Source of the DNA: a virus
IMG/VR virus record: IMGVR_UViG_3300030117_004994
Location: 1-38,089 of that record
Reading direction: 5' to 3' (one strand)
DNA length: 38,089 nucleotides
In this document: piece by piece, positions 8,048 to 35,177 of the stretch
Layout: each line of letters starts with the position of its first letter
How positions within the stretch are numbered: position 1 is the first letter of the stretch
The notes under the pieces: model-generated
The model's database searches: none
Told to the model about the DNA's origin: nothing
The model's input: only the letters and a program-made list of their open reading frames with translations
Position numbers and translations under genes: made by a program

Positions 8048-8431
8048 ATGGAAAAAGAATTAGAAGCGGTAGCGCAGGATTTTTTAGGAAATTATGGTTG
8101 GATGTTGATTGTTGGTATAGCGGTTTTTACTTTTCGTTCGGCAATAGAAGGTATAGTTGAAGGATTAAAAGTATTTTTAGGAAATGATTTAAACACTGAT
8201 GACGTTGTAACAATAGATGATAGGCCCGCAAGAATAGTAAGAGTAGGAATATTTAAGACTATTTTCTTTGTTTATAACATTGGGTGTGTTAAAGGCAAGC
8301 CTTATATAAAAGGTGGTAGTAAAATGGCAATACAAAACGATAAACTTAAAGAACACAGTATAGAAAAACCTTTACCAATGTTAGATTTAACTAAATGGGA
8401 AGAAGAATGTGAAAGAGAAGGTGAAAAATGA
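8048..8431 (+). CDS. Membrane protein with MscS beta-domain-like segment
   Basis: The 127-aa product has one transmembrane helix (about residues 18-34, WMLIVGIAVFTF). A segment follows that resembles the small beta domain of MscS mechanosensitive channels: NDLNTDDVVTIDD, then RPARIVRVGIFKTIFF, and later IQNDKL, echoing the (V/I)PN pattern after the beta domain. It lacks the rest of an MscS channel. It is in the head operon with the next gene overlapping by ATGA. A role in superinfection, lysis timing or membrane protection is conceivable but unproved. Confidence 0.6.
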   Translation: MEKELEAVAQDFLGNYGWMLIVGIAVFTFRSAIEGIVEGLKVFLGNDLNTDDVVTIDDRPARIVRVGIFKTIFFVYNIGCVKGKPYIKGGSKMAIQNDKLKEHSIEKPLPMLDLTKWEEECEREGEK

Positions 8432-8679
8432 TAGATAAAAAGATTTCAGTAGGCTCAATACTTACAATAGTAACCGCAGCAACAACAGTTGTGTATATGC
8501 ACGCTCAAGATAGTACAAAATTAGAAAATTTAGAGATAAAACAAGAACAAACAGTTAAAAGAGTCCAAAAAACTGAAGAAGATATAGTAAATTTAAAGGT
8601 TGGGGTAGCTAAAATAGAAACTCAACTTGATAATAGGTTTGATAGGATAGAAGAATTACTCTTCGAGCTTAGCGACTAG
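8428..8679 (+). CDS. Small single-pass membrane protein with coiled coil
   Basis: The 83-aa protein has an N-terminal hydrophobic helix (about residues 7-25, VGSILTIVTAATTVVYMHA) followed by a heptad-rich coiled coil to the C-terminus. This layout is seen in phage lysis accessory and membrane-anchored proteins. It overlaps the preceding gene by 4 nt, and its 3' end overlaps by 24 nt the 3' end of the leftward TerS gene. Function unknown. Confidence 0.6.
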   Translation: MIDKKISVGSILTIVTAATTVVYMHAQDSTKLENLEIKQEQTVKRVQKTEEDIVNLKVGVAKIETQLDNRFDRIEELLFELSD

Positions 8680-9324
8680 TTTTTCAGCGGCAATTATTTG
8701 ATTTTTCCACTCTTCCCTCTGTCCGGGTGTAGGTCTACGGTTTTTTAAAGGCTCAACACCTACTTTTTTAGCCCTTTTACGCCAATTATACCACTCTTTC
8801 TGCTTTTTATTGTACTCTTGACGCTTAATCTCATCTTTTATACTTTTATTTAACTCTTTTTTCTCTTTTTTCGCACGTTTTGCTTGATTTTCTTCATTTC
8901 TAGGTGGTAAATCGTGATTTTCCGGCAACTCTTCTACTATATCTACTATAACATCATCTTCTACTATCTCTGCGTCCTCTATATTTTCTACTTTCTTTAA
9001 AAACTTCTCAAAAGGACTATCTACAGTAACATTTATATTCTTTACAAGTTTACCACTATGCTCTAATACTAATCTACCTGCCTGTACATTACCTGCTTTA
9101 GCCTCACGTATCATAGCAGTGAGAACGCTCGGCAACTCTCCACCAAACTCTAACATATACCTATCATATATAGCATCTATAAAATTAGGGTCTCTACGCC
9201 AATGCTTAACACTATCTATAGATACACCTACAGTATTAGACACTTCTTCATTGGTTATACTAGGTATAGAAGCATATAGCTCTATAGCCTTAACTTTAGC
9301 GGGTGATTTGATTATATTGCTCAT
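8656..9324 (-). CDS. Probable terminase small subunit
   Basis: The 222-aa product begins with a homeodomain-like helix-turn-helix (ITNEEVSNTVGVSIDSVKHW, about residues 22-41), as in phBC6A51-type small terminases. An acidic middle (about 125-140) and a very basic coiled C-terminal half (KRAKKEKKELNKSIKDEIKR) follow. TerS binds the packaging site and feeds DNA to TerL. Here it is separated from terL by seven genes and lies on the opposite strand. A transcription regulator is the main alternative. The ATG lies only about 5 nt after a predicted -10 box and has no Shine-Dalgarno, so translation may be leaderless. Confidence 0.65.
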   Translation of the reverse strand: MSNIIKSPAKVKAIELYASIPSITNEEVSNTVGVSIDSVKHWRRDPNFIDAIYDRYMLEFGGELPSVLTAMIREAKAGNVQAGRLVLEHSGKLVKNINVTVDSPFEKFLKKVENIEDAEIVEDDVIVDIVEELPENHDLPPRNEENQAKRAKKEKKELNKSIKDEIKRQEYNKKQKEWYNWRKRAKKVGVEPLKNRRPTPGQREEWKNQIIAAEKLVAKLEE

Positions 9325-9329
9325 ATACT

Positions 9330-9359
9330 AATATACAAATTTTTCAAAGTTATTTTCAA
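9330..9359 (-). promoter_or_regulatory. Candidate promoter for the TerS gene
   Basis: On the minus strand TTGAAA (9359-9354) and TATATT (9335-9330) are separated by 18 bp. The expected start site falls at about the first base of the TerS ATG (9324). The -35 box lies inside one of the three TTTCAAAGTT repeats, so a repeat-binding protein could control it. Confidence 0.45.
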
Positions 9360-9393
9360 AGTTTTTTTGGAAACGGGAAAAAGTTTCAAAGTT
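9342..9393. repeat. Three copies of TTTCAAAGTT
   Basis: Direct repeats occur at 9342-9351, 9354-9363 and 9384-9393, spaced 12 and 30 bp start to start. They overlap the predicted TerS promoter and sit next to the probable small-terminase gene. They are candidates for operator sites, for TerS-binding (pac) sites, or for origin iterons; sequence alone does not decide. Confidence 0.6.
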
Positions 9394-9436
9394 CCATTTT
9401 ACATTTTGTGCGATTCACGACGGGGGACACACTGAT

Positions 9437-9535: not shown

Positions 9536-9637
9536 GGTATAGGTAGAAAAAAAGCACCGTGAAACAGGCCGTGAAACAACTCTTCAATTTTTGCACGTTT
9601 TGCACGCAAAAAAACTTAATGATATGTAAAAGAATGT

Positions 9638-9666
9638 TTGCATAGAAGTTTAAAAAGTGATATATT
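9638..9666 (+). promoter_or_regulatory. Candidate promoter for the ribozyme-punctuated operon
   Basis: TTGCAT (9638-9643), a 17-bp spacer and TATATT (9661-9666) predict a start near 9672, exactly where a stem-loop begins (AATGTC/GACATT). The -35 hexamer and spacing match the candidate terL promoter. It is the best promoter before the plus-strand genes that begin at 10169. Confidence 0.55.
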
Positions 9667-9671
9667 CTTTT

Positions 9672-10014
9672 AATGTCGACGATGACATTGTTGCTTTTTG
9701 AGACAAATATTAAGAGATTTAGAGAAAATATCCGTCGAGAGACGGGGATTAGGGGAGCAGATGAAAAAAAGGTCAAAACGGAAATGGACAAATCTCAATG
9801 CCGAAAAACCAAATTACAGCAGATTGACACAAACACGGTAGAACAGCGGATATGACAGGTACGGAAAACCACCTTACCGACGGCGGAAAAGGTCTTAAGA
9901 TTAAATTAGCAACGATATAGAAAAGTTACTACCCCTTACGAGGGGGACAACCTAAACGCGAGGGCGAGGACAACCGGCAATGCCGATAGTAACCAAAGGT
10001 AACGACAAGTTACC
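9672..10014 (+). ncRNA. Candidate structured leader RNA upstream of the first ribozyme
   Basis: From the predicted transcription start the strand folds repeatedly. AATGTC/GACATT (9672-9689) comes first. CCGTC-GAGA-GACGG (9732-9745) has a GNRA loop. GAGATTT 9714-9720 pairs with AAATCTC 9790-9796. ACCTT/AAGGT encloses CCG/CGG (9871-9893). CCCCT-TACG-AGGGG (9932-9945) has a UNCG-type loop, and CGGC-AAT-GCCG spans 9975-9985. GTTACTA 9925-9931 pairs with TAGTAAC 9987-9993, enclosing the last two, and GGTAAC/GTTACC (9998-10014) follows. No convincing gene is present. Cleavage by the first hammerhead would release this leader as a separate RNA of about 445 nt. Helices were found by eye; no known RNA family was recognised. 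Confidence 0.5.
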
Positions 10015-10047
10015 GAGATAATATTTTTATTCTTTTTATTTTGTAAA

Positions 10048-10122
10048 GTTCAACTGATGAGACTTCAAGAGTCGAAACCGTCAAAGGCTACAACAACAGT
10101 ATAAACAACGGCGGTCTTGAAC
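10048..10122 (+). ncRNA. Hammerhead ribozyme 1 (type I)
   Basis: Stem I is GTTCAA (10048-10053) with TTGAAC (10117-10122). The core CTGATGA (10054-10060) and GAAA (10074-10077) flank stem II GACT-TCAAG-AGTC. Stem III is ACCGTC (10077-10082) with GGCGGT (10110-10115, one G-U pair). Cleavage is expected after C10116. It is unusual in having a 27-nt unstructured loop on stem III where the others have tight loops. The cut would leave a 52-nt leader before ATG 10169 containing CAAC repeats and two small hairpins. Confidence 0.9.
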
Positions 10123-10168
10123 AGTGCAACAACGCACAACAACAACAAACAACCGCAAACGCGGTAGA

Positions 10169-10681
10169 ATGGAAAATAAAATGATAAATAAGATAAATAA
10201 CTCTAAAGTTAACAAAGCAACTAAAACTATAGAAGCAAACTTAAACACAGTGATTGTATTGCCAAACGGTATTAAAATCACTTGTAGTGCCGTAACGAAT
10301 AGTTCTTCGGATATGTTCGGAAGCACTTCAACGGTAATAGGGTCTAGAGTCTACATAACAGAAAATAAAGACTCTTTAAAAGAATGCGGTTTGAGTTGGT
10401 CAGCCGGTCAGTGTGTCGAAGTTAGGCACAATATACAAGGGCTAGCGGAAAGGACACAAGTTGACTTGAGAGACCCGGAAAAGGTAAAACGTAACGAGGA
10501 CGGAACGTTTACAAAAACGGGGGAGCAAAGCACACACGCAATTACTACAGAAAAAGAGCGAGGTTGTACGGACGCACAGACAACTGTTAAAACTCGCGAC
10601 AATTTCACAAACACAAGCGGTGCGGGTGTGATACCGGAAAGAGTGGTCATCAACCATACAAAAGCCGGTAAACAGTCATAG
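10169..10681 (+). CDS. Unknown protein, first gene of the ribozyme-punctuated operon
   Basis: I choose ATG 10169 (170 aa), since the longer upstream reading from GTG 10124 would be translated from the CAAC-rich hairpin leader. ATG 10181 is another option; neither has a strong Shine-Dalgarno. The product is hydrophilic. It has a beta-rich core LPNGIKITCSAVTNSSSDMF around residues 33-52 and a Thr-, Lys- and Glu-rich C-terminal half that looks disordered. The stop TAG (10679-10681) shares its last base with hammerhead 2. Codons are rich in CpG, unlike the structural genes. No function recognised. Confidence 0.65.
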   Translation: MENKMINKINNSKVNKATKTIEANLNTVIVLPNGIKITCSAVTNSSSDMFGSTSTVIGSRVYITENKDSLKECGLSWSAGQCVEVRHNIQGLAERTQVDLRDPEKVKRNEDGTFTKTGEQSTHAITTEKERGCTDAQTTVKTRDNFTNTSGAGVIPERVVINHTKAGKQS

Positions 10682-10743
10682 TTCAACTGAAGAGACCTAA
10701 TGGTCGAAACACCGAATGTTGCGAAACGTGCGGTGTCTTGGAC
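10681..10743 (+). ncRNA. Hammerhead ribozyme 2 (type I, CTGAAGA core variant)
   Basis: Stem I is GTTCAA/TTGGAC (one G-U pair), stem II GACC-TAAT-GGTC, and GAAA is at 10706-10709. Stem III is ACACCG/CGGTGT, then a mismatch, then ATGTT/AACGT capped by a GCGA tetraloop. Cleavage is expected after C10737. The core reads CTGAAGA: only position 7 differs from consensus, and position 7 is the one hammerhead core position known to tolerate any base. The cut leaves 39 nt before ATG 10777. Confidence 0.9.
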
Positions 10744-10776
10744 AGGAAACAAAAACAACGTAAAGGAACATAAGAT

Positions 10777-11022
10777 ATGCAAATTACAAAACTACAGGCC
10801 GGAAACGGTAAAGCGGTAAATTTGAACACTCTCAATATTTCAGACGTACCGCAAGATAACATAACCGAAAACACGCTCGAGTTATTACGTAAGACGGCGG
10901 ACAATAAGTTATATTGGTATAGAAACGCAACAATCGTAGAAATTATATTCTCACGGTTATTTCGTAAGATTGGTTATATGCCTGTTATAACGGTAAAGAA
11001 GTTTAGACGCAAAAGTTATTAA
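10777..11022 (+). CDS. Small protein of unknown function (81 aa)
   Basis: It starts behind AAAGGAACATAAGAT, 39 nt after the hammerhead 2 cut site. The N-terminal half is polar (ITKLQAGNGKAVNLNTLN). The C-terminal half carries a hydrophobic and basic stretch (ATIVEIIFSRLFRKIGYMP) and ends KKFRRKSY, which suggests membrane or nucleic-acid contact. It is followed after 29 nt by a 27-aa gene on the same predicted RNA segment. Function not recognised. Confidence 0.65.
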   Translation: MQITKLQAGNGKAVNLNTLNISDVPQDNITENTLELLRKTADNKLYWYRNATIVEIIFSRLFRKIGYMPVITVKKFRRKSY

Positions 11023-11051
11023 TTATTACGTTAACAAAGGAAAGGAACACT

Positions 11052-11135
11052 ATGTTTGAATTTGTACTGATAAACCCGTTTACCTACGTTTTGGCGTTTT
11101 GGTTGGGGGTTGCTGTATATTCACAGTTCAACTGA
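11052..11135 (+). CDS. 27-aa transmembrane mini-protein whose stop lies inside a ribozyme core
   Basis: An ATG behind AAAGGAAAGGAACACT opens a 27-codon frame that is nearly all hydrophobic in the middle (FTYVLAFWLGVAVY), so a single membrane helix is likely. The frame reads through GTTCAA, the 5' strand of hammerhead 3 stem I, and stops at TGA 11133-11135 inside CTGATGA. Good ribosome binding site, size and hydrophobicity support a real gene. The overlap means that a terminating ribosome would cover the ribozyme core. Confidence 0.65.
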   Translation: MFEFVLINPFTYVLAFWLGVAVYSQFN

Positions 11136-11190
11136 TGAGCGGTTAAATACCCGAAACACGGAATGTTGCGAAATATACCGTGTCTTGAAC
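11126..11190 (+). ncRNA. Hammerhead ribozyme 3 (type I)
   Basis: Stem I is GTTCAA/TTGAAC and the core is CTGATGA (11132-11138) with GAAA (11153-11156). Stem II is GCGGT-TAAAT-ACCC with one unpaired base on the 5' arm. Stem III is ACACGG/CCGTGT, then A-A mismatch, then ATGTT/AATAT with a GCGA loop. Cleavage is expected after C11184, 36 nt before ATG 11221. Compared with hammerhead 2, ACACCG/CGGTGT became ACACGG/CCGTGT: both strands changed together. Confidence 0.92.
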
Positions 11191-11220
11191 ACTTGACAAT
11201 AAACAAAGGAGATTACGTAA

Positions 11221-11562
11221 ATGACGTACACACTCAAAAGGTATAAAAATAACTTGAAAATTAGCAAACACTTTATCTTTAGTTATAATACAGAAGTTGC
11301 GAAGATTGACATAAAGCACGCTCTTATAATTGTAGATAGAAAATTTTCACCAAGTACGACAAGACACATCAATTATGTTTTATCACAATTCCAAGCAAAT
11401 AATATCAAATTTGACGGAAAACCTGTAAAACCGATTATGTCGTTATGGAAGTGGAAAATCGTACATACGGCTGATTACTTTAAATCAAGTTATATTGATT
11501 ATACAAGTAAAGATACACCAATTACGCCTTATATGCGTGATTCTGTAACTAAACTTATATAA
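11221..11562 (+). CDS. Basic protein of unknown function (113 aa)
   Basis: It starts behind AAAGGAGATTACGTAA, 36 nt after the hammerhead 3 cut. The product is basic and aromatic-rich. A segment with YNTEVAKID (about residues 22-30) and STTRHINYVL (about 44-53) resembles short phage proteins with a Y-x-T-x-VA ... TT-x-x-H-I-N pattern that I recall but cannot assign to a function. It is followed by a long structured untranslated region and hammerhead 4. Confidence 0.65.
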   Translation: MTYTLKRYKNNLKISKHFIFSYNTEVAKIDIKHALIIVDRKFSPSTTRHINYVLSQFQANNIKFDGKPVKPIMSLWKWKIVHTADYFKSSYIDYTSKDTPITPYMRDSVTKLI

Positions 11563-11574
11563 TGTAAACTTACG

Positions 11575-11673
11575 CAGTTGCATGGTTACGTTTCCTTATA
11601 CGCACAAACGCAGTAATTATGTCGTTCGACATTCCTAATTACTCTTTCCTTTTCCATTGTAATTATGCAACTG
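11575..11673 (+). other. Structured 3' untranslated element between a gene and hammerhead 4
   Basis: CAGTTGCAT (11575-11583) and ATGCAACTG (11665-11673) form a perfect 9-bp closing stem. Inside it, GTAATT/AATTAC and ATGTC/GACAT form a second hairpin with a TCCT bulge and GTTC loop. No ORF of note is present. It ends 10 nt before hammerhead 4, so it would be the 3' end region of the preceding processed mRNA. Confidence 0.5.
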
Positions 11674-11683
11674 TTACGTTTTA

Positions 11684-11737
11684 GTTCAACTGATGAGTCC
11701 TGATGGACGAAACACGGTTAATTACCGTGTCTTGGAC
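11684..11737 (+). ncRNA. Hammerhead ribozyme 4 (type I, compact)
   Basis: Stem I is GTTCAA/TTGGAC, core CTGATGA (11690-11696), stem II GTCC-TGAT-GGAC, then GAAA. Stem III is ACACGGT/ACCGTGT, 7 bp with a 5-nt loop. Cleavage is expected after C11731, 39 nt before ATG 11771. This and hammerhead 7 are the most compact copies (54 and 52 nt). Confidence 0.93.
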
Positions 11738-11770
11738 AGATTACTTTAAACAAATGAAAGGACGCAAATT

Positions 11771-12190
11771 ATGATACATTCATCAATTCCTGAATATGAT
11801 TATAGCGAACGTATTACGTTTATACCTTCGCAAACCGGTAATATTTTACAAGAACGGTTAGAGTTATATCAGAACGAATGTTCCGATTTCCGGGCTAAAA
11901 ACATAGTTTCCGCAACTATTGAATGGGACGTAGTTATTTCACAAATGCGAAATCACTTTAAAAACCCGTTTATACAGTTACAATTCACTTGTTACAGACT
12001 TTACGTAGTAACAAACATTGGGACGAAAATACTGTTGCCGGTCGACAAATCGGAGTTTATATTTCCATTGATTGATTCCGTAGAACGGTTTATGGACGAC
12101 GGTGACGCAAACTTATCCGCGTTCCCGGACTTATGTATACACTCAATACATTATGATATAGACAAGAAATATGTAGAGATACGATTATAA
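11771..12190 (+). CDS. Unknown protein (139 aa)
   Basis: It starts behind GAAAGGACGCAAATT, 39 nt after the hammerhead 4 cut. The sequence is acidic and aromatic, with a region of alternating hydrophobic residues (FIQLQFTCYRLYVVTNIGTK, about residues 58-77) that suggests a beta-sheet domain, and ends YVEIRL. It reaches within 22 nt of hammerhead 5. No family recognised; CpG-rich codons match its neighbours in this operon. Confidence 0.65.
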   Translation: MIHSSIPEYDYSERITFIPSQTGNILQERLELYQNECSDFRAKNIVSATIEWDVVISQMRNHFKNPFIQLQFTCYRLYVVTNIGTKILLPVDKSEFIFPLIDSVERFMDDGDANLSAFPDLCIHSIHYDIDKKYVEIRL

Positions 12191-12212
12191 CAAATTTTTG
12201 TTTGTTGTTGTA

Positions 12213-12276
12213 GTTCAACTGATGAGTCGTTTATCGACGAAACACCGTACGTCGTGAGATGTGCGGTGTCTTGAAC
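12213..12276 (+). ncRNA. Hammerhead ribozyme 5 (type I)
   Basis: Stem I is GTTCAA/TTGAAC, core CTGATGA, stem II GTCG-TTTAT-CGAC, then GAAA. Stem III is ACACCG/CGGTGT plus ACGTC/GATGT with a GTGA tetraloop. Cleavage is expected after C12270, 59 nt before ATG 12330. The upper stem differs from hammerheads 2 and 3 in sequence but keeps length, mismatch position and GNRA loop. Confidence 0.93.
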
Positions 12277-12329
12277 AGAATTACGGTAGTAATTCATAAC
12301 TAAATAAAAAAAACAAATAGGAGATAAAA

Positions 12330-14210
12330 ATGCAAAGAATAAATAAACTTAGCATAAAAACCTTATATGCGAAACGTAACGAAGAGGGCTACATTAATAC
12401 TTTAGAGTTATCAAATGAAGAATTACCGCCCCCGCTCACCACTTTAATAGGTGTGAAATTGTGCTTAATTGAGCAAATATTTGATACAAACGGCACAGTT
12501 GCAGAGAACGTTTTGTGCAGTTCTGAGGTATTTACAACACACAAACAGTTTCAAAAGATTATCGCTGATTTAGTGTCAGAAGATGCTTTTGTTGAAGAAG
12601 TGCGTCATTTGAACAGTTATACGAATATCGTGAAGAGATTCAAAAAAGTTATTCGTTTATACAATTCAAGTAAATATGCAAAAGAACTTGTACACACTTA
12701 CTTTGCGCAACTTTCGTGCGGGCCGGCAAGCGGGTCAATATACAGACGTTATGGTTTTGATTTTGACATTCTTAACTTGCTTGAAAATTCGTACAAAAGC
12801 AGTGGAGGTGTAATTGGCTCAGTAGCAGTGAATAGACACGCGGGTTGGGCGCCTTGTCAAAAAGGCGAATATACCGTACCTTTTGTAAAAAGCGGTAAAT
12901 TCAACAAAATGACAAAAGCGTATATACCTCTAATGATGTTTAAAAACGCTAAGATTGAGTTTTACAAAGGTAAAGACTCAACCGACATCGTTCGCGACAA
13001 CATTATGTATGCGAGTTCAAATATGGCTCTTGCGATGCTTGACGTTTTACACGCAAAAGCAGATACTTTGTCTAGATACAGTAACAGATACGTTATGGCC
13101 GGGACTACGGCATATCAGTATTCTAACAGTACGTTTGTAGTAACTAGCAATGTAACGCACCCAACCAAAGAAGAGCGAGGTTTAGAGTATTGCGGTATGT
13201 GTACTTATTTGCGTGATGATTACCTTGATGATGAGGGTTGTTGTGAATCTTGTAAGGTTGACAATCTTGAAAATCTTATAATGGATTACAGTACAAAACC
13301 AACACCAAGGTATTTTCGCTCAATAAAAGGTAAAATACGTAGTTTTAGTGCGAATCAAGCAAAGTTTACTAAATACTCATATAAGGGGTTTGAACTTGAG
13401 GTAGAGTGCAAGCGTCATGTTTCATCTAAAATGCGAGATATCATAGCCGACGAGATAATGAACATTCGTAGTTCGGACGGATATAAACTGTTTTATGTAA
13501 AACGTGACGGAAGTCTTAATTATGGCTTTGAAATTGTGTCATATCCTATGACATACAATGCCTACAGAAATATCAACTTTAGCAGTATATTTGGTAGGTT
13601 TCAGAAATATTTGAAGTCATTCAATACTGAGACAGCAGGTATGCACTTACACGTTTCGCGTAATTCTATGTCATCTTTGGAGGCTTTCAAAGTTTTGAAA
13701 ATGACGTATGATTACCCGCATTTCACAATGTTGATTAGTCAACGTTCTGTCGACGAACAAAACGAATGGGCTAATTTGAGGTTGAATAACCTTAGTCGTG
13801 TAAAACGCGCAATATTGAGTTATTGGCGTGACGACAACTACAATCCTACACCATACCGTTCTTCGGTAACGAAGTACATTGACGCAACTAGCAACATAAA
13901 ATGCGTTAAGGGTGTTGGCGGCGATAGGGGTGCGTGGAACTTTCAAAACTCGTCAACCATAGAATGCCGTATATTCAAAGGTAATTTGAATCCTACGGCT
14001 TTTATGAAAAATGTCGAATATGTTGAGTCTTTGATAGATTACTGTAAATTAACGTCAATGAGTTCTTTGAGCCTTGGTACGTACGTTGGGTTTGTTAAGT
14101 CAAACACAGTAAAATACCCAAATCTCAACAAATATCTTATAGACCAACGAAAGTCTTTGGCTAAGAGTTTATCGAATCCAAAGCAAATTCCATACGGTCT
14201 TGATAGGTAA
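12330..14210 (+). CDS. Amidoligase (COOH-NH2 ligase, glutamine-synthetase-like fold) with zinc knuckle
   Basis: The 626-aa product has a unique N-terminal region, a four-cysteine zinc knuckle at about residues 288-310 (YCGMC ... CCESC), and then an amidoligase-type domain at about 350-590. Recognisable blocks are GFELEVECK (about 353), VKRDGSLNYGFEIVSYPMT (about 390), AGMHLHVSRN (about 436) and STIECRIFKGNLNP (about 542). These correspond to the ElE, DgSl..g.EivS, HvHv and EfRif.gtln patterns of Amidoligase_2 proteins. Such enzymes join carboxylates to amines using ATP, modifying peptides or proteins. It starts behind AGGAGATAAAA after hammerhead 5. The next gene encodes a class II glutamine amidotransferase, a known partner. 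Confidence 0.8.
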   Translation: MQRINKLSIKTLYAKRNEEGYINTLELSNEELPPPLTTLIGVKLCLIEQIFDTNGTVAENVLCSSEVFTTHKQFQKIIADLVSEDAFVEEVRHLNSYTNIVKRFKKVIRLYNSSKYAKELVHTYFAQLSCGPASGSIYRRYGFDFDILNLLENSYKSSGGVIGSVAVNRHAGWAPCQKGEYTVPFVKSGKFNKMTKAYIPLMMFKNAKIEFYKGKDSTDIVRDNIMYASSNMALAMLDVLHAKADTLSRYSNRYVMAGTTAYQYSNSTFVVTSNVTHPTKEERGLEYCGMCTYLRDDYLDDEGCCESCKVDNLENLIMDYSTKPTPRYFRSIKGKIRSFSANQAKFTKYSYKGFELEVECKRHVSSKMRDIIADEIMNIRSSDGYKLFYVKRDGSLNYGFEIVSYPMTYNAYRNINFSSIFGRFQKYLKSFNTETAGMHLHVSRNSMSSLEAFKVLKMTYDYPHFTMLISQRSVDEQNEWANLRLNNLSRVKRAILSYWRDDNYNPTPYRSSVTKYIDATSNIKCVKGVGGDRGAWNFQNSSTIECRIFKGNLNPTAFMKNVEYVESLIDYCKLTSMSSLSLGTYVGFVKSNTVKYPNLNKYLIDQRKSLAKSLSNPKQIPYGLDR

Positions 14211-14213
14211 TCA

Positions 14214-14278
14214 GTCCAACTGATGATGGGTTTAATACCCGAAACACCGAACGTCGTGAGATGTGCGGTGTCTTGGAC
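14214..14278 (+). ncRNA. Hammerhead ribozyme 6 (type I, stem I covariant)
   Basis: Stem I is GTCCAA/TTGGAC, a fully paired variant of GTTCAA/TTGAAC and so a compensatory change. Core CTGATGA is followed by TGGGT-TTAAT-ACCC, with one extra base on the 5' arm of stem II as in hammerhead 3, then GAAA. Stem III is ACACCG/CGGTGT plus ACGTC/GATGT with a GTGA loop. Cleavage is expected after C14272, 52 nt before ATG 14325. It begins 4 nt after the amidoligase stop. Confidence 0.93.
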
Positions 14279-14324
14279 AATGTAGTTCATAAATAAAATA
14301 AAACATAAATAAGGAGAAAATACA

Positions 14325-15179
14325 ATGTGCTTACTTACATTACAAAAACGTAACGCAAAAACACTTAACGAAGATATTCTTCAAACGTCGTTCGAAAACA
14401 ATAACGACGGAGCGGGCTTGGCTTACGCCGACAACGGTAAAATACACGTTCGAAAGTATCGTGACTTTACTACGTTCAATGACGATTATCAAAAGTTACA
14501 CAAAAAATACAGAAAATCTACCGCGTTTCTGTTACATTTCAGAATCGGGACGCACGGGTCATCTGAGGGTACAACGAATGTTCACCCGTTTTTTGTCAAT
14601 GACAACTTAGTTTTTGCTCACAACGGGGTAATCAACAATGTACGCGACGACAAGAAATTGTCAGATACTCAGGTATTCAACAACGATTACCTGAAACAGT
14701 TACCAAAGTTTTGGATTAAAAACAACGCAACTTTACGTTTGATTTCCGAGTTCATCGGTCATTCAAAACTTGCGTTTCTTGACAGTAACGGTGGATTCAA
14801 GATTGTCAACAAACATCTAGGACATTGGGACGGTAAAACTTGGTTTAGCAACAATTCATACAAGCCACACGTTTTCGACTTTGGCGGTTGTACTACAACA
14901 CGCGTTGGTTGGAACAGAAGTGCGGCTCTTGTGCAACAAAGCAAAAGTACTGCTACACCAAATTATTACGGTAGTATCGGGACTAACTACGGAAGCGGTT
15001 ACACTGATATCGAAGAGTTTAAGCCGGAAGTAAATCACGAAACGGGCTTTCACTGTAGATACGAAAAAGATAACTGTGACGAATGCGGTCAAGTATCACA
15101 CAAGTTACGTCAAAAGATGTACGATACGGACGATTCTTGGTACTGTGGTGTATGTTGGAAGGAACAGACAAGGACGTAA
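14325..15179 (+). CDS. Class II glutamine amidotransferase (Ntn hydrolase)
   Basis: The 284-aa protein starts Met-Cys, giving the N-terminal nucleophile Cys2 after Met removal. It then shows the class II amidotransferase pattern: NNDGAGLAY (about residues 26-34), LLHFRIGTHGS (about 69-79), NVHPFF (about 86) and FAHNGVINN (about 97-105). These enzymes take ammonia from glutamine. A C-terminal zinc ribbon (CDECG ... CGVC, about 253-278) is added. It starts behind AAGGAGAAAATACA after hammerhead 6. Beside an amidoligase it may supply ammonia or act on glutamine-derived amides; the actual substrate is unknown. Confidence 0.85.
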   Translation: MCLLTLQKRNAKTLNEDILQTSFENNNDGAGLAYADNGKIHVRKYRDFTTFNDDYQKLHKKYRKSTAFLLHFRIGTHGSSEGTTNVHPFFVNDNLVFAHNGVINNVRDDKKLSDTQVFNNDYLKQLPKFWIKNNATLRLISEFIGHSKLAFLDSNGGFKIVNKHLGHWDGKTWFSNNSYKPHVFDFGGCTTTRVGWNRSAALVQQSKSTATPNYYGSIGTNYGSGYTDIEEFKPEVNHETGFHCRYEKDNCDECGQVSHKLRQKMYDTDDSWYCGVCWKEQTRT

Positions 15180-15182
15180 ATA

Positions 15183-15260
15183 GTGGATATAGTGACAATA
15201 TTCATTGTTGTTGTCGTTATAGCAATGCTTAAGTTGGCTATCGACGCATTCAATGAATAA
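15183..15260 (+). CDS. 25-aa membrane mini-protein
   Basis: A GTG start at 15183, just after the amidotransferase stop and preceded by AAGGACGTAAATA, opens a 25-codon frame with a continuous hydrophobic helix (IVTIFIVVVVIAMLKLAI) and a short polar end. Size and design resemble the 27-aa protein before hammerhead 3. The assignment is by reading frame and hydrophobicity only. Confidence 0.5.
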   Translation: MDIVTIFIVVVVIAMLKLAIDAFNE

Positions 15261-15276
15261 CATAAATCTTGTATTT

Positions 15277-15300
15277 GGACGGCGATTCAGTTCGTCGTCC
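15277..15300 (+). other. 8-bp GC-rich hairpin before hammerhead 7
   Basis: GGACGGCG (15277-15284) pairs with CGTCGTCC (15293-15300) through one G-U pair, with loop ATTCAGTT. No U-tract follows, so it is not an ordinary terminator. It sits 11 nt before hammerhead 7 and may guard the 3' end of the processed amidotransferase mRNA. Confidence 0.5.
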
Positions 15301-15311
15301 ATTTACAGGCA

Positions 15312-15363
15312 GTTCAACTGATGAGCGGTGATTCCGCGAAACTTGGGAAGCCAAGTCTTGAAC
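15312..15363 (+). ncRNA. Hammerhead ribozyme 7 (type I, minimal)
   Basis: Stem I is GTTCAA/TTGAAC, core CTGATGA (15318-15324), stem II GCGG-TGATT-CCGC, then GAAA. Stem III is ACTTGG-GAAG-CCAAGT, with a completely different stem III sequence from the others but perfect pairing. Cleavage is expected after C15357, 41 nt before ATG 15399. This is the last copy; no further CTGATGA/GAAA arrangement was found on either strand. Confidence 0.93.
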
Positions 15364-15398
15364 ACTAAAGTTCAAATAAAAACGAAAAGGAGAATAAA

Positions 15399-15737
15399 AT
15401 GACAGAAGAAGAAAGAATGTTGATTCTGTATCAAATGGGTCAAATGTCAGAATATGATATTGTTGACAATTGGGCCGACCAAATCGCAATGGGTATGCAT
15501 GGCGATTACGAAGCACAAGAAACGTTAGATTTCGCCGAAAATGAATCTTTAACATTAGATGAGTTAGAAGACGAAAATGGTACAGGACAGTATGTTTCTG
15601 TAAATTTTGACGTAGACGGAGCAAGACAACTGCAAAGACGCAATGAACGTAATGAGCGTATAGCGTTGCAAAGTAGGTCAGTAGCGCCACCAATGAAAAA
15701 AGCGGCGGCCAAGAAAAGACCGACTGTTCAAGTCTAA
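15399..15737 (+). CDS. Acidic protein with basic tail, unknown function (112 aa)
   Basis: It starts behind AAAAGGAGAATAAA, 41 nt after the hammerhead 7 cut. The first two thirds are acidic (EEERMLILYQMGQMSEYD, later LTLDELEDENGTG); the end is basic and low-complexity (KKAAAKKRPTVQV). It is the last gene of the ribozyme-punctuated set and is followed after 24 nt by a very stable hairpin. No family recognised. Confidence 0.65.
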   Translation: MTEEERMLILYQMGQMSEYDIVDNWADQIAMGMHGDYEAQETLDFAENESLTLDELEDENGTGQYVSVNFDVDGARQLQRRNERNERIALQSRSVAPPMKKAAAKKRPTVQV

Positions 15738-15761
15738 TAACATTCCTTATGTTATGTTACA

Positions 15762-15804
15762 ATATCCCTGTAATTACCTGTTTTACAGGTGGTTACGGGG
15801 ATAT
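15762..15804 (+). terminator. Very strong 18-bp stem-loop ending the punctuated operon
   Basis: ATATCCCTGTAA (15762-15773) pairs with TTACGGGGATAT (15793-15804, one G-U pair). A 2x2 internal loop separates this from ACCTGT/ACAGGT (15776-15790) with a TTT loop. It lies 24 nt after the last punctuated gene. The downstream sequence has only a short TTTT, so it may be a terminator, an RNase III site or a 3' stabiliser. Confidence 0.55.
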
Positions 15805-15829
15805 GTTTTCCATCAGAAAATTTATTATA

Positions 15830-16378: not shown

Positions 16379-16789
16379 ATGGAAACAGATAAAGTATTTG
16401 TATACGGCACTTTAAAGAAAAATCATTCTAACAGTCATTTGTTGGAATCGTCCGTTTATATTGGTGAAGCGGAATCGGTGTCAAAATTCAAAATGGTTAA
16501 TTTAGGCGGATTTCCTGCTATTCTTTATAATTCAGACGAAGGGTACAAAATTAGCGGTGAAATATACCAAATAACGCCAAACACACTACACGCGTTAGAT
16601 ATATTAGAGGGCGAAGGTACTTTTTATAAAAGAGTACTTGACGATTTCTTTATAATTAGCAATATACCTACAAAAAACGGGCAAAGTTATAAATGTTATG
16701 TTTATATTTTAAAAGATATGCCTAGTTTTTATGATTATAACAATATTTATATTAATACTAAGAACTTATTGACTTATGAGAGAATCTGA
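16379..16789 (+). CDS. AIG2-like gamma-glutamylcyclotransferase-fold protein
   Basis: The 136-aa product shows the hallmark VFVYGTLKK at residues 7-15, then YIGEAESVSKFKMVNLGGFPAI (about 27-48, split as YIGEAESVSKF and MVNLGGFPAI), GEIYQITPNTLHALDILEG (about 60-78) with the catalytic-type Glu region, and FYKR. This is the AIG2/GGCT fold, which releases 5-oxoproline from gamma-glutamyl amines. AIG2-like genes are known neighbours of amidoligase and class II amidotransferase genes, both of which lie 1.2-4 kb upstream here. The start has no clear Shine-Dalgarno. Confidence 0.85.
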   Translation: METDKVFVYGTLKKNHSNSHLLESSVYIGEAESVSKFKMVNLGGFPAILYNSDEGYKISGEIYQITPNTLHALDILEGEGTFYKRVLDDFFIISNIPTKNGQSYKCYVYILKDMPSFYDYNNIYINTKNLLTYERI

Positions 16790-16795
16790 GATTTT

Positions 16796-16840
16796 GGATA
16801 GAGGTTCCCTACCCCCACTAGAAGTAGAGTAACCTTATCC
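16796..16840 (+). terminator. Candidate terminator after the AIG2-like gene
   Basis: Three nested helices, GGATA/TATCC, GGTT/AACC and CTAC/GTAG, fold into one interrupted hairpin, followed by CTTTT. It begins 6 nt after the stop codon. A second short hairpin (GACC-TAC-GGTC) follows at once. Confidence 0.5.
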
Positions 16841-17047
16841 CTTTTGACCTACGGTCGAATCTTCAACTTGGATAACTGCTTACAAATGTTTATAAATCAG
16901 TCGAACAGTTATTTTTTCATCAACATTGACATATTAACGCACTCAACTGTTTTCGGTTTGTGCTGCGCTTATGTTAAAATCCCCTTTTAGTAGCGCTTTA
17001 TATTTCACCAATTCCCTAAAAGATTTAAGCCAAACGAAATTGGGCCA

Positions 17048-33515: not shown

Positions 33516-34483
33516 TAGTAGTATAACCTCCCGTGTTTCCTAGTTCTAGTCATTTTAATAGACTTTCCACTAGAAGCATCTACTTCTTCATAAACACCAA
33601 AAACTTCTAATTCCCACTCATCATCTAAAACAGCTACTGCACTATCATCAGCCCCTGCAAACCTAATTTCTAAACCTCCAACCATTAATTGGTAGTCTCC
33701 TGTTATTACCTCATCGGTTACAACTTTGTTATTTTTTAGTTTTTCAGAATCTTTAACCCAAACTGAGTATGTTGCAGCTCCTAAAGCTCCGGCATTAGTT
33801 ATTTTAATTTTAACTAAGTCATAGCTTCCTGTCCATTCCCCTCTAGTGTCTACAGGTCTAATTTTACCTGCAGTATCATAAGTTACGTCTCTAATTACAC
33901 CTTGTGAAGAGTCTCTAGTAACTTGCCAACTTAAAGCGGCTTTACCTTGATTTATGTTATTTATGTTTAACATAGCCTCTTCCATTAATGCATTAGCAAG
34001 TTCACTATTAGGGTCTTGTGTTTTAATCATAAAATTAGCAGCAATAAGTGCTGTTGTTCTAATAATTAAATAGTCGTAGTTACCATTCTTGTCTTTCCAA
34101 GCTTCTTTTGGCATATTAGGGTCTAACATACTATCTAAGTATCTACTTGCATCAGTTCTAAACTGTGTAACCATAGCAGTAAATTCTTCACCTGCCTCCA
34201 TTAATTTGTCAAGAGGATTAGTAGCAGAATAATAATATAGCACATCTTCAGCAGAATTATAAAACCATTCACCTTCAACATTTAAATCAGTATGTGCAGA
34301 TTGAGCAGGCCCTAAGTCTTCGCCATTAGCAAATAATTGACTTACTAAACCACTATTATGTGCTGCATACTTATTGCTTGTAACTTCTGTCCAACCATAA
34401 ATTGCTTTTTTAGTATCAAAACTATCAATTTGTGGAAATACTCTTTTTAATTCCTTGTGTGTACAATATATTGGTGCTGCCAT
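33515..34483 (-). CDS. Head-tail adaptor / connector protein
   Basis: The 322-aa product begins with a helical connector-like region (CTHKELKRVFPQIDSF, later FRTDASRYLDSMLD and the helix LIIRTTALIAANFMIK, about residues 110-160). It ends in a beta-rich domain (YSVWVKDSEKLKNN and YQLMVGGLEIRFAG). It overlaps the basic protein gene upstream by one base and the terminator downstream. The order adaptor-terminator-tube supports the assignment. It is longer than usual, suggesting a fused C-terminal decoration domain. Confidence 0.65.
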   Translation of the reverse strand: MAAPIYCTHKELKRVFPQIDSFDTKKAIYGWTEVTSNKYAAHNSGLVSQLFANGEDLGPAQSAHTDLNVEGEWFYNSAEDVLYYYSATNPLDKLMEAGEEFTAMVTQFRTDASRYLDSMLDPNMPKEAWKDKNGNYDYLIIRTTALIAANFMIKTQDPNSELANALMEEAMLNINNINQGKAALSWQVTRDSSQGVIRDVTYDTAGKIRPVDTRGEWTGSYDLVKIKITNAGALGAATYSVWVKDSEKLKNNKVVTDEVITGDYQLMVGGLEIRFAGADDSAVAVLDDEWELEVFGVYEEVDASSGKSIKMTRTRKHGRLYY

Positions 34484-34728
34484 TACTTACCTCTCATCTT
34501 TCTTCTAACAGACTTAGAGTATCTAGCTCTTGTCTTACCTGCTTTAGTAGCTCTACGTTTTTTTCTATTTTCATATGCTTTTTGTGAAGGTGTAAGACTG
34601 TCTCTAACAGACTTAGGAAGATACCTACCACGTTTAGATTTAGGCTTCTTTTTGTCTTTAGGGTTTACGTAGCCCCATTTTTGAGAAGTCCACTTCTTTA
34701 AAGATTTCTGTGATTTTTTTAAAGCCAT
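34483..34728 (-). CDS. Small basic virion-operon protein (81 aa)
   Basis: Very Lys/Arg-rich with a repeated style: KSLKKWTSQKWGYVNPKDKK, then KSKRGRYLPKSVRDSL and ARYSKSVRRKMRGK. Similar KWTxQxWGY ... SKRGRYLP proteins occur in many phages; I recall the pattern but no function. It overlaps the adjacent genes by one base on each side. Likely a DNA-binding or capsid-internal protein. Confidence 0.7.
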   Translation of the reverse strand: MALKKSQKSLKKWTSQKWGYVNPKDKKKPKSKRGRYLPKSVRDSLTPSQKAYENRKKRRATKAGKTRARYSKSVRRKMRGK

Positions 34729-34916
34729 TATCTATATCCTCCACCCGCTTTTTTGTAAGCACGAGCAAGCATTTGCGCCTTACGAGCACTCCATACACCA
34801 CGAGGCCCGCCTTTACTTCCTGCTTTAATTCTGTAAAATAATCTTTTACGTAAAGTAGGTTTAGTATAATTGCCTGCTTTGTTTACTGTACTTTTTCTAC
34901 GTTTTTTTCTAGGCAT
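34728..34916 (-). CDS. Small basic virion-operon protein (62 aa)
   Basis: Lys/Arg/Gly-rich, with GNYTKPTLRKRLFYRIKAGS followed by GGPRGVWSARKAQMLARAYK and an end AGGGYR. This motif set recurs in phage proteins from environmental genomes (recollection). It is one of four such genes in tandem. No enzymatic feature. Confidence 0.7.
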   Translation of the reverse strand: MPRKKRRKSTVNKAGNYTKPTLRKRLFYRIKAGSKGGPRGVWSARKAQMLARAYKKAGGGYR

Positions 34917-34919
34917 TTT

Positions 34920-35177
34920 TTACCACATCTTACAAGACCAATACCTTGCAGTTGTTCTATCTTTAGCTGTGGCGCATCTATGTCTAGCTCTGAACGACTT
35001 TCTTCTGCCCGGTTGGTTCTTTTTAATTTTCATATTAGGGTCACCAAAAGCAACTCTTTTTACTTTACTGCCCGATTTAACAAAGACTTCAAACTTTTTT
35101 CTTCCATAACCGGGACGACCTTTTGTTATTCTTCTAGGTTTTCCAAGTCTAACTGACCTTCCTCTATATTTAGCCAT
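34920..35177 (-). CDS. Small basic virion-operon protein (85 aa)
   Basis: It contains the recognisable signature FGDPNMKIKKNQPGRRKSF (about residues 44-62) and RARHRC ... TTARYWSCKMW at the end, widespread in environmental phages though without a known function to me. Two Cys and a His could bind a metal. It is one of four consecutive highly basic genes. Confidence 0.75.
   Translation of the reverse strand: MAKYRGRSVRLGKPRRITKGRPGYGRKKFEVFVKSGSKVKRVAFGDPNMKIKKNQPGRRKSFRARHRCATAKDRTTARYWSCKMW

Follow-up and report, generated by a model that had tools for sequence, protein, structure and literature searches.

Clustered hammerhead ribozymes that flank single genes were described in prophages by Perreault et al. 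(2011), the text of whose report (PMC3088659) proposes that transcripts are thereby processed to gene-length mRNAs, and records cleavage of tandem prophage arrays in vitro as well as cleavage of one triple array in Escherichia coli. A 2017 review (PMC6155905) repeats the link to phages and calls the role of prokaryotic hammerheads open. Here, we describe seven hammerhead elements (HH1 to HH7) in an operon on a 38,089-nt stretch of viral DNA, hereafter the window, which is IMG/VR record IMGVR_UViG_3300030117_004994, a single metagenomic contig known from its sequence alone. The window appears to be a marine-type phage carrying an acquired seven-gene block, in which a predicted self-cutting RNA stands ahead of each main gene. 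An initial annotation of the window had considered the use of hammerheads as cistron separators to be undescribed. That was wrong: cistron separation by phage hammerheads has been known since the 2011 report, going by its text, and the window is an unusually complete example of it.

Identity of the seven elements

A sequence pattern containing the core CTGATGA matched the window six times, with no match in 100 shuffles, and extending the pattern to allow CTGAAGA raised the number of matches to seven; the reversed control pattern gave none. R1, a covariance model derived from an alignment of 29 equal-length hammerhead-like elements from viral contigs (HH7 included, the other six not), returned exactly the same seven elements and nothing else in the window, at E-values of 3.6e-10 or better. 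Pattern and model thus agree with the initial annotation, which had placed seven type I hammerheads at these coordinates, all on the + strand. Its assertion that all seven share the CTGATGA core holds for six copies and fails for HH2, in which the core is CTGAAGA, a variation permitted at position 7.

The core CUGANGA ... GAA and a C at the cleavage site are present in all seven copies, as are, in the model alignment, the three helices, an open stem I and the A15.1-U16.1 pair. The 10.1-11.1 pair adjoins the core in six of the seven; an extra U intervenes in HH6, which also has GTCCAA/TTGGAC as its stem I, while HH3 keeps the pair and carries a bulge after it. All 112 pair cells of the window copies are standard pairs, and 21 of them are changed on both sides compared with 6.4 in shuffles; standard pairs and changes on both sides were likewise found in the 29-element alignment, though both alignments lean towards structure, which had guided either the choice of their rows or the fitting of them. 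A feature outside this selection is the A that flanks stem I on each side, which is present in all seven window copies and, among other phage copies, in 43/49 on the 5' side and 42/49 on the 3' side. Loop II, moreover, follows a U-N-A pattern that is nearly invariant among the 29 aligned elements, and together with the flanking A...A it may form the tertiary contact needed by natural hammerheads. The minimum free energy (MFE) fold is the hammerhead for five of the seven (Table 1).

HH2, HH3, HH5 and HH6 have related versions of a lengthened stem III that is capped by a GNRA loop and in HH5 reaches 12 base pairs. As the differences between these stems are compensatory, the sequences point to copies that arose by duplication and were then selected for their structure. 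HH1 has an alternative pairing open to it, between UUCAAGA in the loop region of stem II and UCUUGAA in the strand at the cleavage site; this competing fold is of roughly equal energy and could act as a switch.

Table 1. Predicted ribozymes, genes and control signals of the operon (bits and E-values are for R1 unless another model is named)
Feature	Position	Strand	Predicted cut	Cut to next ATG (nt)	Basis and remarks
Promoter-like site, extended -10	9637..9666	+			TTTGCA-18-TATATT, TG before -10; consensus scan, 9/12 matches
Leader RNA that HH1 would remove	9673..10116	+			Position; fold z-score -1.75
HH1	10048..10122	+	C10116/10117	52	55.7 bits, E 3.9e-13
Gene 1, 170 aa, unknown	10169..10681	+			Open reading frame (ORF); no Pfam or PHROG match; no clear Shine-Dalgarno
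HH2	10681..10743	+	C10737/10738	39	45.0 bits, E 3.6e-10; RF00163 31.4 bits; MFE = hammerhead fold
Gene 2, 81 aa, unknown	10777..11022	+			ORF
Possible 27-aa membrane peptide	11053..11135	+			TGA stop inside HH3 core; sequence only
HH3	11126..11190	+	C11184/11185	36	45.3 bits, E 3.1e-10; bulged C in stem II
Gene 3, 113 aa, PHROG 5643/4264, unknown function	11221..11562	+			PHROG match
HH4	11684..11737	+	C11731/11732	39	47.5 bits, E 7.6e-11; RF00163 30.9 bits; MFE = hammerhead fold
Gene 4, 139 aa, unknown	11771..12190	+			ORF
HH5	12213..12276	+	C12270/12271	59	50.4 bits, E 1.2e-11; MFE = hammerhead fold
Gene 5, 626 aa, distant relative of phage Amidoligase_2 proteins	12330..14210	+			tblastn to MW202733
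HH6	14214..14278	+	C14272/14273	52	47.0 bits, E 1.1e-10; MFE = hammerhead fold
Gene 6, 284 aa, class II glutamine amidotransferase	14325..15179	+			PF13230 24.6 bits, cut-off 23
HH7	15312..15363	+	C15357/15358	41	63.3 bits (in R1 training set); MFE = hammerhead fold
Gene 7, 112 aa, unknown	15399..15737	+			ORF
Strong intrinsic terminator, 20-pair stem, T-rich tail	15762..15804	+			Directly after gene 7, closes operon

Position between genes in the window and in other phages

Every main + strand ORF (at least 81 aa) within 10169-15737 has its own hammerhead ahead of it, with the predicted cut 36-59 nt upstream of the start codon. The distances to the next ATG given by the initial annotation proved correct on recomputation and its new 5' ends coincide with those predicted here, while its statement that a hammerhead precedes almost every gene covers all of these main ORFs and leaves out two small candidates, 11053-11135 and 15182-15262, which lack a preceding element. 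A Shine-Dalgarno-like sequence is found at six of the seven main starts, gene 1 being the exception, and the first base of HH2 overlaps the stop codon of the same gene. The two small candidates (27 and 26 aa) would encode possible small hydrophobic peptides on the mRNAs of the upstream genes.

The same arrangement recurs in a set of 72 non-redundant hammerhead copies from other phages, for which ORFs were called heuristically rather than by a gene finder. An upstream ORF of at least 60 aa ending between -60 and +12 nt of the element was present for 55 of 68 phage hammerheads, against 18% in the control; these 55 ORFs end from 10 nt inside the element to 19 nt before it, and the TGA of the core itself is the upstream stop codon in 19 of them. 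Downstream, a start codon preceded by a Shine-Dalgarno sequence lay within 100 nt in 63/71 (control 16%), with start-to-cut spacings almost all of 21-38 nt (median 27), and the proteins encoded there belong to 51 families. From this spacing of stops and starts in the 72 copies it follows that the element usually occupies what lies between one gene's stop codon and the ribosome-binding site that comes after it. The present operon departs from the rule in its longer leaders of 36-59 nt and in HH4, HH5 and HH7, which lie further from the upstream stop.

Arrays of two to five hammerheads were detected in other contigs, for example four within approximately 3 kb on a contig of 53.7 kb and five on one of 13 kb (weakest member E 8e-4), which makes the seven in one operon the largest array found in a comparison that drew mostly on fragment contigs and required a CAA/TTG stem I. 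Curated Rfam made no hammerhead call in any of ten phage loci (L013, L020, L041, L073, L087, L129, L131, L133, L176 and L177), each of which holds at least one hammerhead according to R1 or the structure finder. The curated cut-off thus misses this group of phage hammerheads, and for that reason such arrays are probably under-reported. In bacterial genomes, the GTTCAA form gave no match, and a broader pattern matched mostly in Legionella, with only part of the matches passing the structure filter.

Taken from sequence, the type I hammerhead identity of the elements and their predicted role as cistron separators are well supported by structure, covariation and position, and by dozens of unrelated phage contigs in which the layout recurs. 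With a hammerhead before each main gene and so regular a layout elsewhere, the cistron-separator idea becomes testable with one construct. A wider generalisation is more tentative, and we put it at rather less than even odds: phages may have a standard element for the junctions between cistrons, in which a type I hammerhead sits after the upstream stop codon and ahead of the ribosome-binding site that follows. It would cut just beyond the stretch probably covered by the initiating ribosome (21-38 nt ahead of the start, in this operon 36-59 nt) and convert polycistronic RNA into single-gene mRNAs, in this operon, with its interchangeable stem I, possibly circular ones.

Origin of the operon, its predicted processing and alternative readings

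The GC content at third codon positions is 0.374 in the module, compared with 0.234 in the other + strand genes and 0.188 in the - strand genes, and its codon choice (9640-15810) departs from that of the rest of the phage in favouring ACG, CCG, GCG and CGT. By this composition the operon is marked as foreign DNA inserted into the phage and, with control signals of its own, it resembles a moron. In a related contig (L182), the sequences flanking the module lie 2.0 kb apart, compared with 7.3 kb in the window, and because window positions 8400-9410 and 16700-17046 both match this relative in order, a chimeric contig is unlikely. The promoter-like site at 9637-9666 probably marks the start of the operon, even if promoter-type consensus matches in the region number 36 against 25 expected, which makes the site weak.

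Direct relatives of the module were found neither in viral contigs by way of the 626-aa protein nor in annotated phages by way of its DNA. Phages MW202733 and MEP401 both have relatives of the gene 5/gene 6 pair, and Marvin has one of the amidoligase-like protein; no hammerheads were found in the examined stretches of these three phages. The match of gene 5 to the annotated amidoligase of MW202733 is distant (tblastn 25.6%, E 3e-18), and that relative matches PF12224, the gene 5 protein itself being without a Pfam match. A tie between the ribozymes and amidoligase or amidotransferase genes was ruled out, as the structure finder detected none in phage regions with those genes (L152-L155), among them L152, which carries an amidotransferase relative. 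Gene 3 has distant relatives in three viral loci (L239, L223 and L241). A gamma-glutamyl cyclotransferase (PF06094) is encoded at 16379-16789, beyond the module but near the amidoligase-like and class II amidotransferase genes (12330-15179); it is also present in L182 at 48% identity, where relatives of gene 5 and gene 6 were not found. Further away, at 34483-35177, three consecutive small and very Lys/Arg-rich proteins are encoded in a - strand gene run with virion-like genes.

We estimate a probability of roughly 0.8 for the account as a whole, in which a horizontally acquired, moron-like operon would be transcribed as one RNA from approximately 9670 to 15804 and seven hammerheads would each cleave it in cis on the 3' side of a C, at 36-59 nt ahead of the next start, yielding a leader plus seven mRNAs, every one of them with a single main gene. 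Each downstream mRNA would gain a short 5'-OH leader with its own ribosome-binding site, and each upstream mRNA a structured 3' end made up of stems II and III with a 2',3'-cyclic phosphate. The likely gain would be uncoupling: each gene would have a well-defined 5' end, would be free of read-in from the sequence or translation ahead of it, and would have a stability of its own. The gains put forward in the initial annotation, namely 5'-OH ends, capped 3' ends and independent stability, are likewise putative. The parts of this account that were established directly are the sequence, structure, covariation and position of the elements, the terminator and the foreign composition.

Several points weigh against it. 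Curated Rfam assigned no family in the window at its gathering score; with RF00163 (cut-off 34 bits), HH2 reached 31.4 and HH4 30.9, and the other five gave weak or no matches to hammerhead families. The covariance-model check put forward in the initial annotation came out negative at the cut-off of RF00163, and the search with R1 was positive. The Rfam cut-off is a curator's threshold and is not decisive here, since perfectly paired copies from other phages fall short of it as well. In HH1, a competing fold at -12.1 kcal/mol lies 0.4 below the hammerhead at -11.7 kcal/mol, and the MFE of HH3 favours another fold by 4.1 kcal/mol. HH3 and HH6 also have an extra stem II base adjoining or near the conserved 10.1-11.1 pair, and these irregularities, a bulged C in stem II of the former and, in the latter, a U inserted between stem II and the core, make them the doubtful copies. 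The module is known from one metagenomic contig and is carried by no close relative: among 35 related-phage contigs (terminase 77-90% identical, several of 30-36 kb) no convincing hammerhead was detected, the single weak match having an E-value of 0.007. The promoter is a consensus match, and internal promoters may be present; like the promoter, the cutting of the seven copies in phage-infected cells is predicted from sequence, and its purpose is something we infer.

A serious alternative or addition to cistron separation, though on balance an unlikely one, is that the ribozymes mainly form the 3' end of the upstream gene in a translation-linked manner, whereby a ribosome at a stop codon overlapping stem I would hold the ribozyme open and cutting would follow its departure. 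The frequency with which an upstream ORF ends at the element in other phages, not least where the stop is the core TGA, fits this well, and HH2, HH6 and possibly HH3 show the same arrangement. However, HH1 has no established upstream gene, HH4, HH5 and HH7 sit 122, 23 and approximately 50 nt past the stop, and the downstream spacing from cut to start is at least as regular as the upstream one. It is improbable that the excised mRNAs circularise, with UUGRAC at the start of an internal unit and GUYCAA in the ribozyme at the other end of that unit rebuilding a stem I for religation by the ribozyme or a ligase to give circular single-gene mRNAs. Stem I is indeed nearly identical in all seven copies, five of the six internal units can pair 6/6 between their own ends (the sixth 5/6), and hammerhead-flanked RNAs of retrozymes are circularised (PMC6155905). 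In other phage clusters (L073, L017, L087 and L100), however, neighbouring stem I sequences mostly differ, so circularisation is not a conserved feature, and the shared stem I is explained by the four copies with a common stem III, which look like duplicates. Circular and spliced products of the prophage arrays were moreover looked for by Perreault et al. and, according to the text, none were found (PMC3088659).

Just as little probability attaches to the view that the seven copies are remnants of duplication, inactive or nearly so. The Rfam scores below cut-off, the stem II irregularities of HH3 and HH6, the competing folds of HH1 and HH3 and the related stem III of four copies would all be expected of such remnants, but all core residues are kept in the seven copies while the stems changed compensatorily, and the flanking A...A is kept in 7/7. 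Cistron separation is also to be preferred to an array of integron-type attC sites between gene cassettes, which is suggested by the same-direction genes with palindromic elements between them and by 5' ends that fit the R'' box RYYYAAC in 7/7, a coincidence. The 3' end of an attC site must be GTTRRRY (R' box), whereas CTTGRAC is found in all seven, and on this defining GTT triplet (0/7 matches) the attC array was rejected. Invariant catalytic-core residues, the mostly poor fit of hammerheads from other phages to RYYYAAC and the absence of any integrase noticed in the window leave this reading a vanishingly small chance.

Relation to known ribozyme systems

The window copies share with the Rfam family Hammerhead_1 (RF00163, type I) the core, the three stems and the open stem I, but differ in scoring at most 31.4 bits against 34, in a stem I of 6 base pairs flanked by A...A and in the long stem III of four copies. 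Retrozymes and viroid-like circular RNAs likewise use tandem hammerheads to excise RNA units, whereas the units in the window are protein-coding and belong to a DNA phage with no retroelement, and circles are only hypothesised here. Theta ribozymes of gut phages (PMC10879173) are also phage self-cleaving ribozymes that process transcripts, but they have an HDV-like fold and act on tRNA transcripts.

Closest are the prophage clusters (PMC3088659), in which, as the text describes them, several hammerheads border individual genes, or blocks of a few genes, in the DNA of phages. That text names no array larger than the triple one, whereas the window has seven copies in one bounded operon, with other genes. 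Two aspects go beyond Perreault et al. as far as their text extends: the quantified rule of stop, ribozyme and start, which was not found stated in the open-licence literature, and the seven-copy array, the largest found, with the reservation that larger ones may stand in the figures or supplements of 2011. Like the prophage clusters, the window operon has several co-oriented hammerheads that stand between consecutive genes within a single predicted transcription unit.

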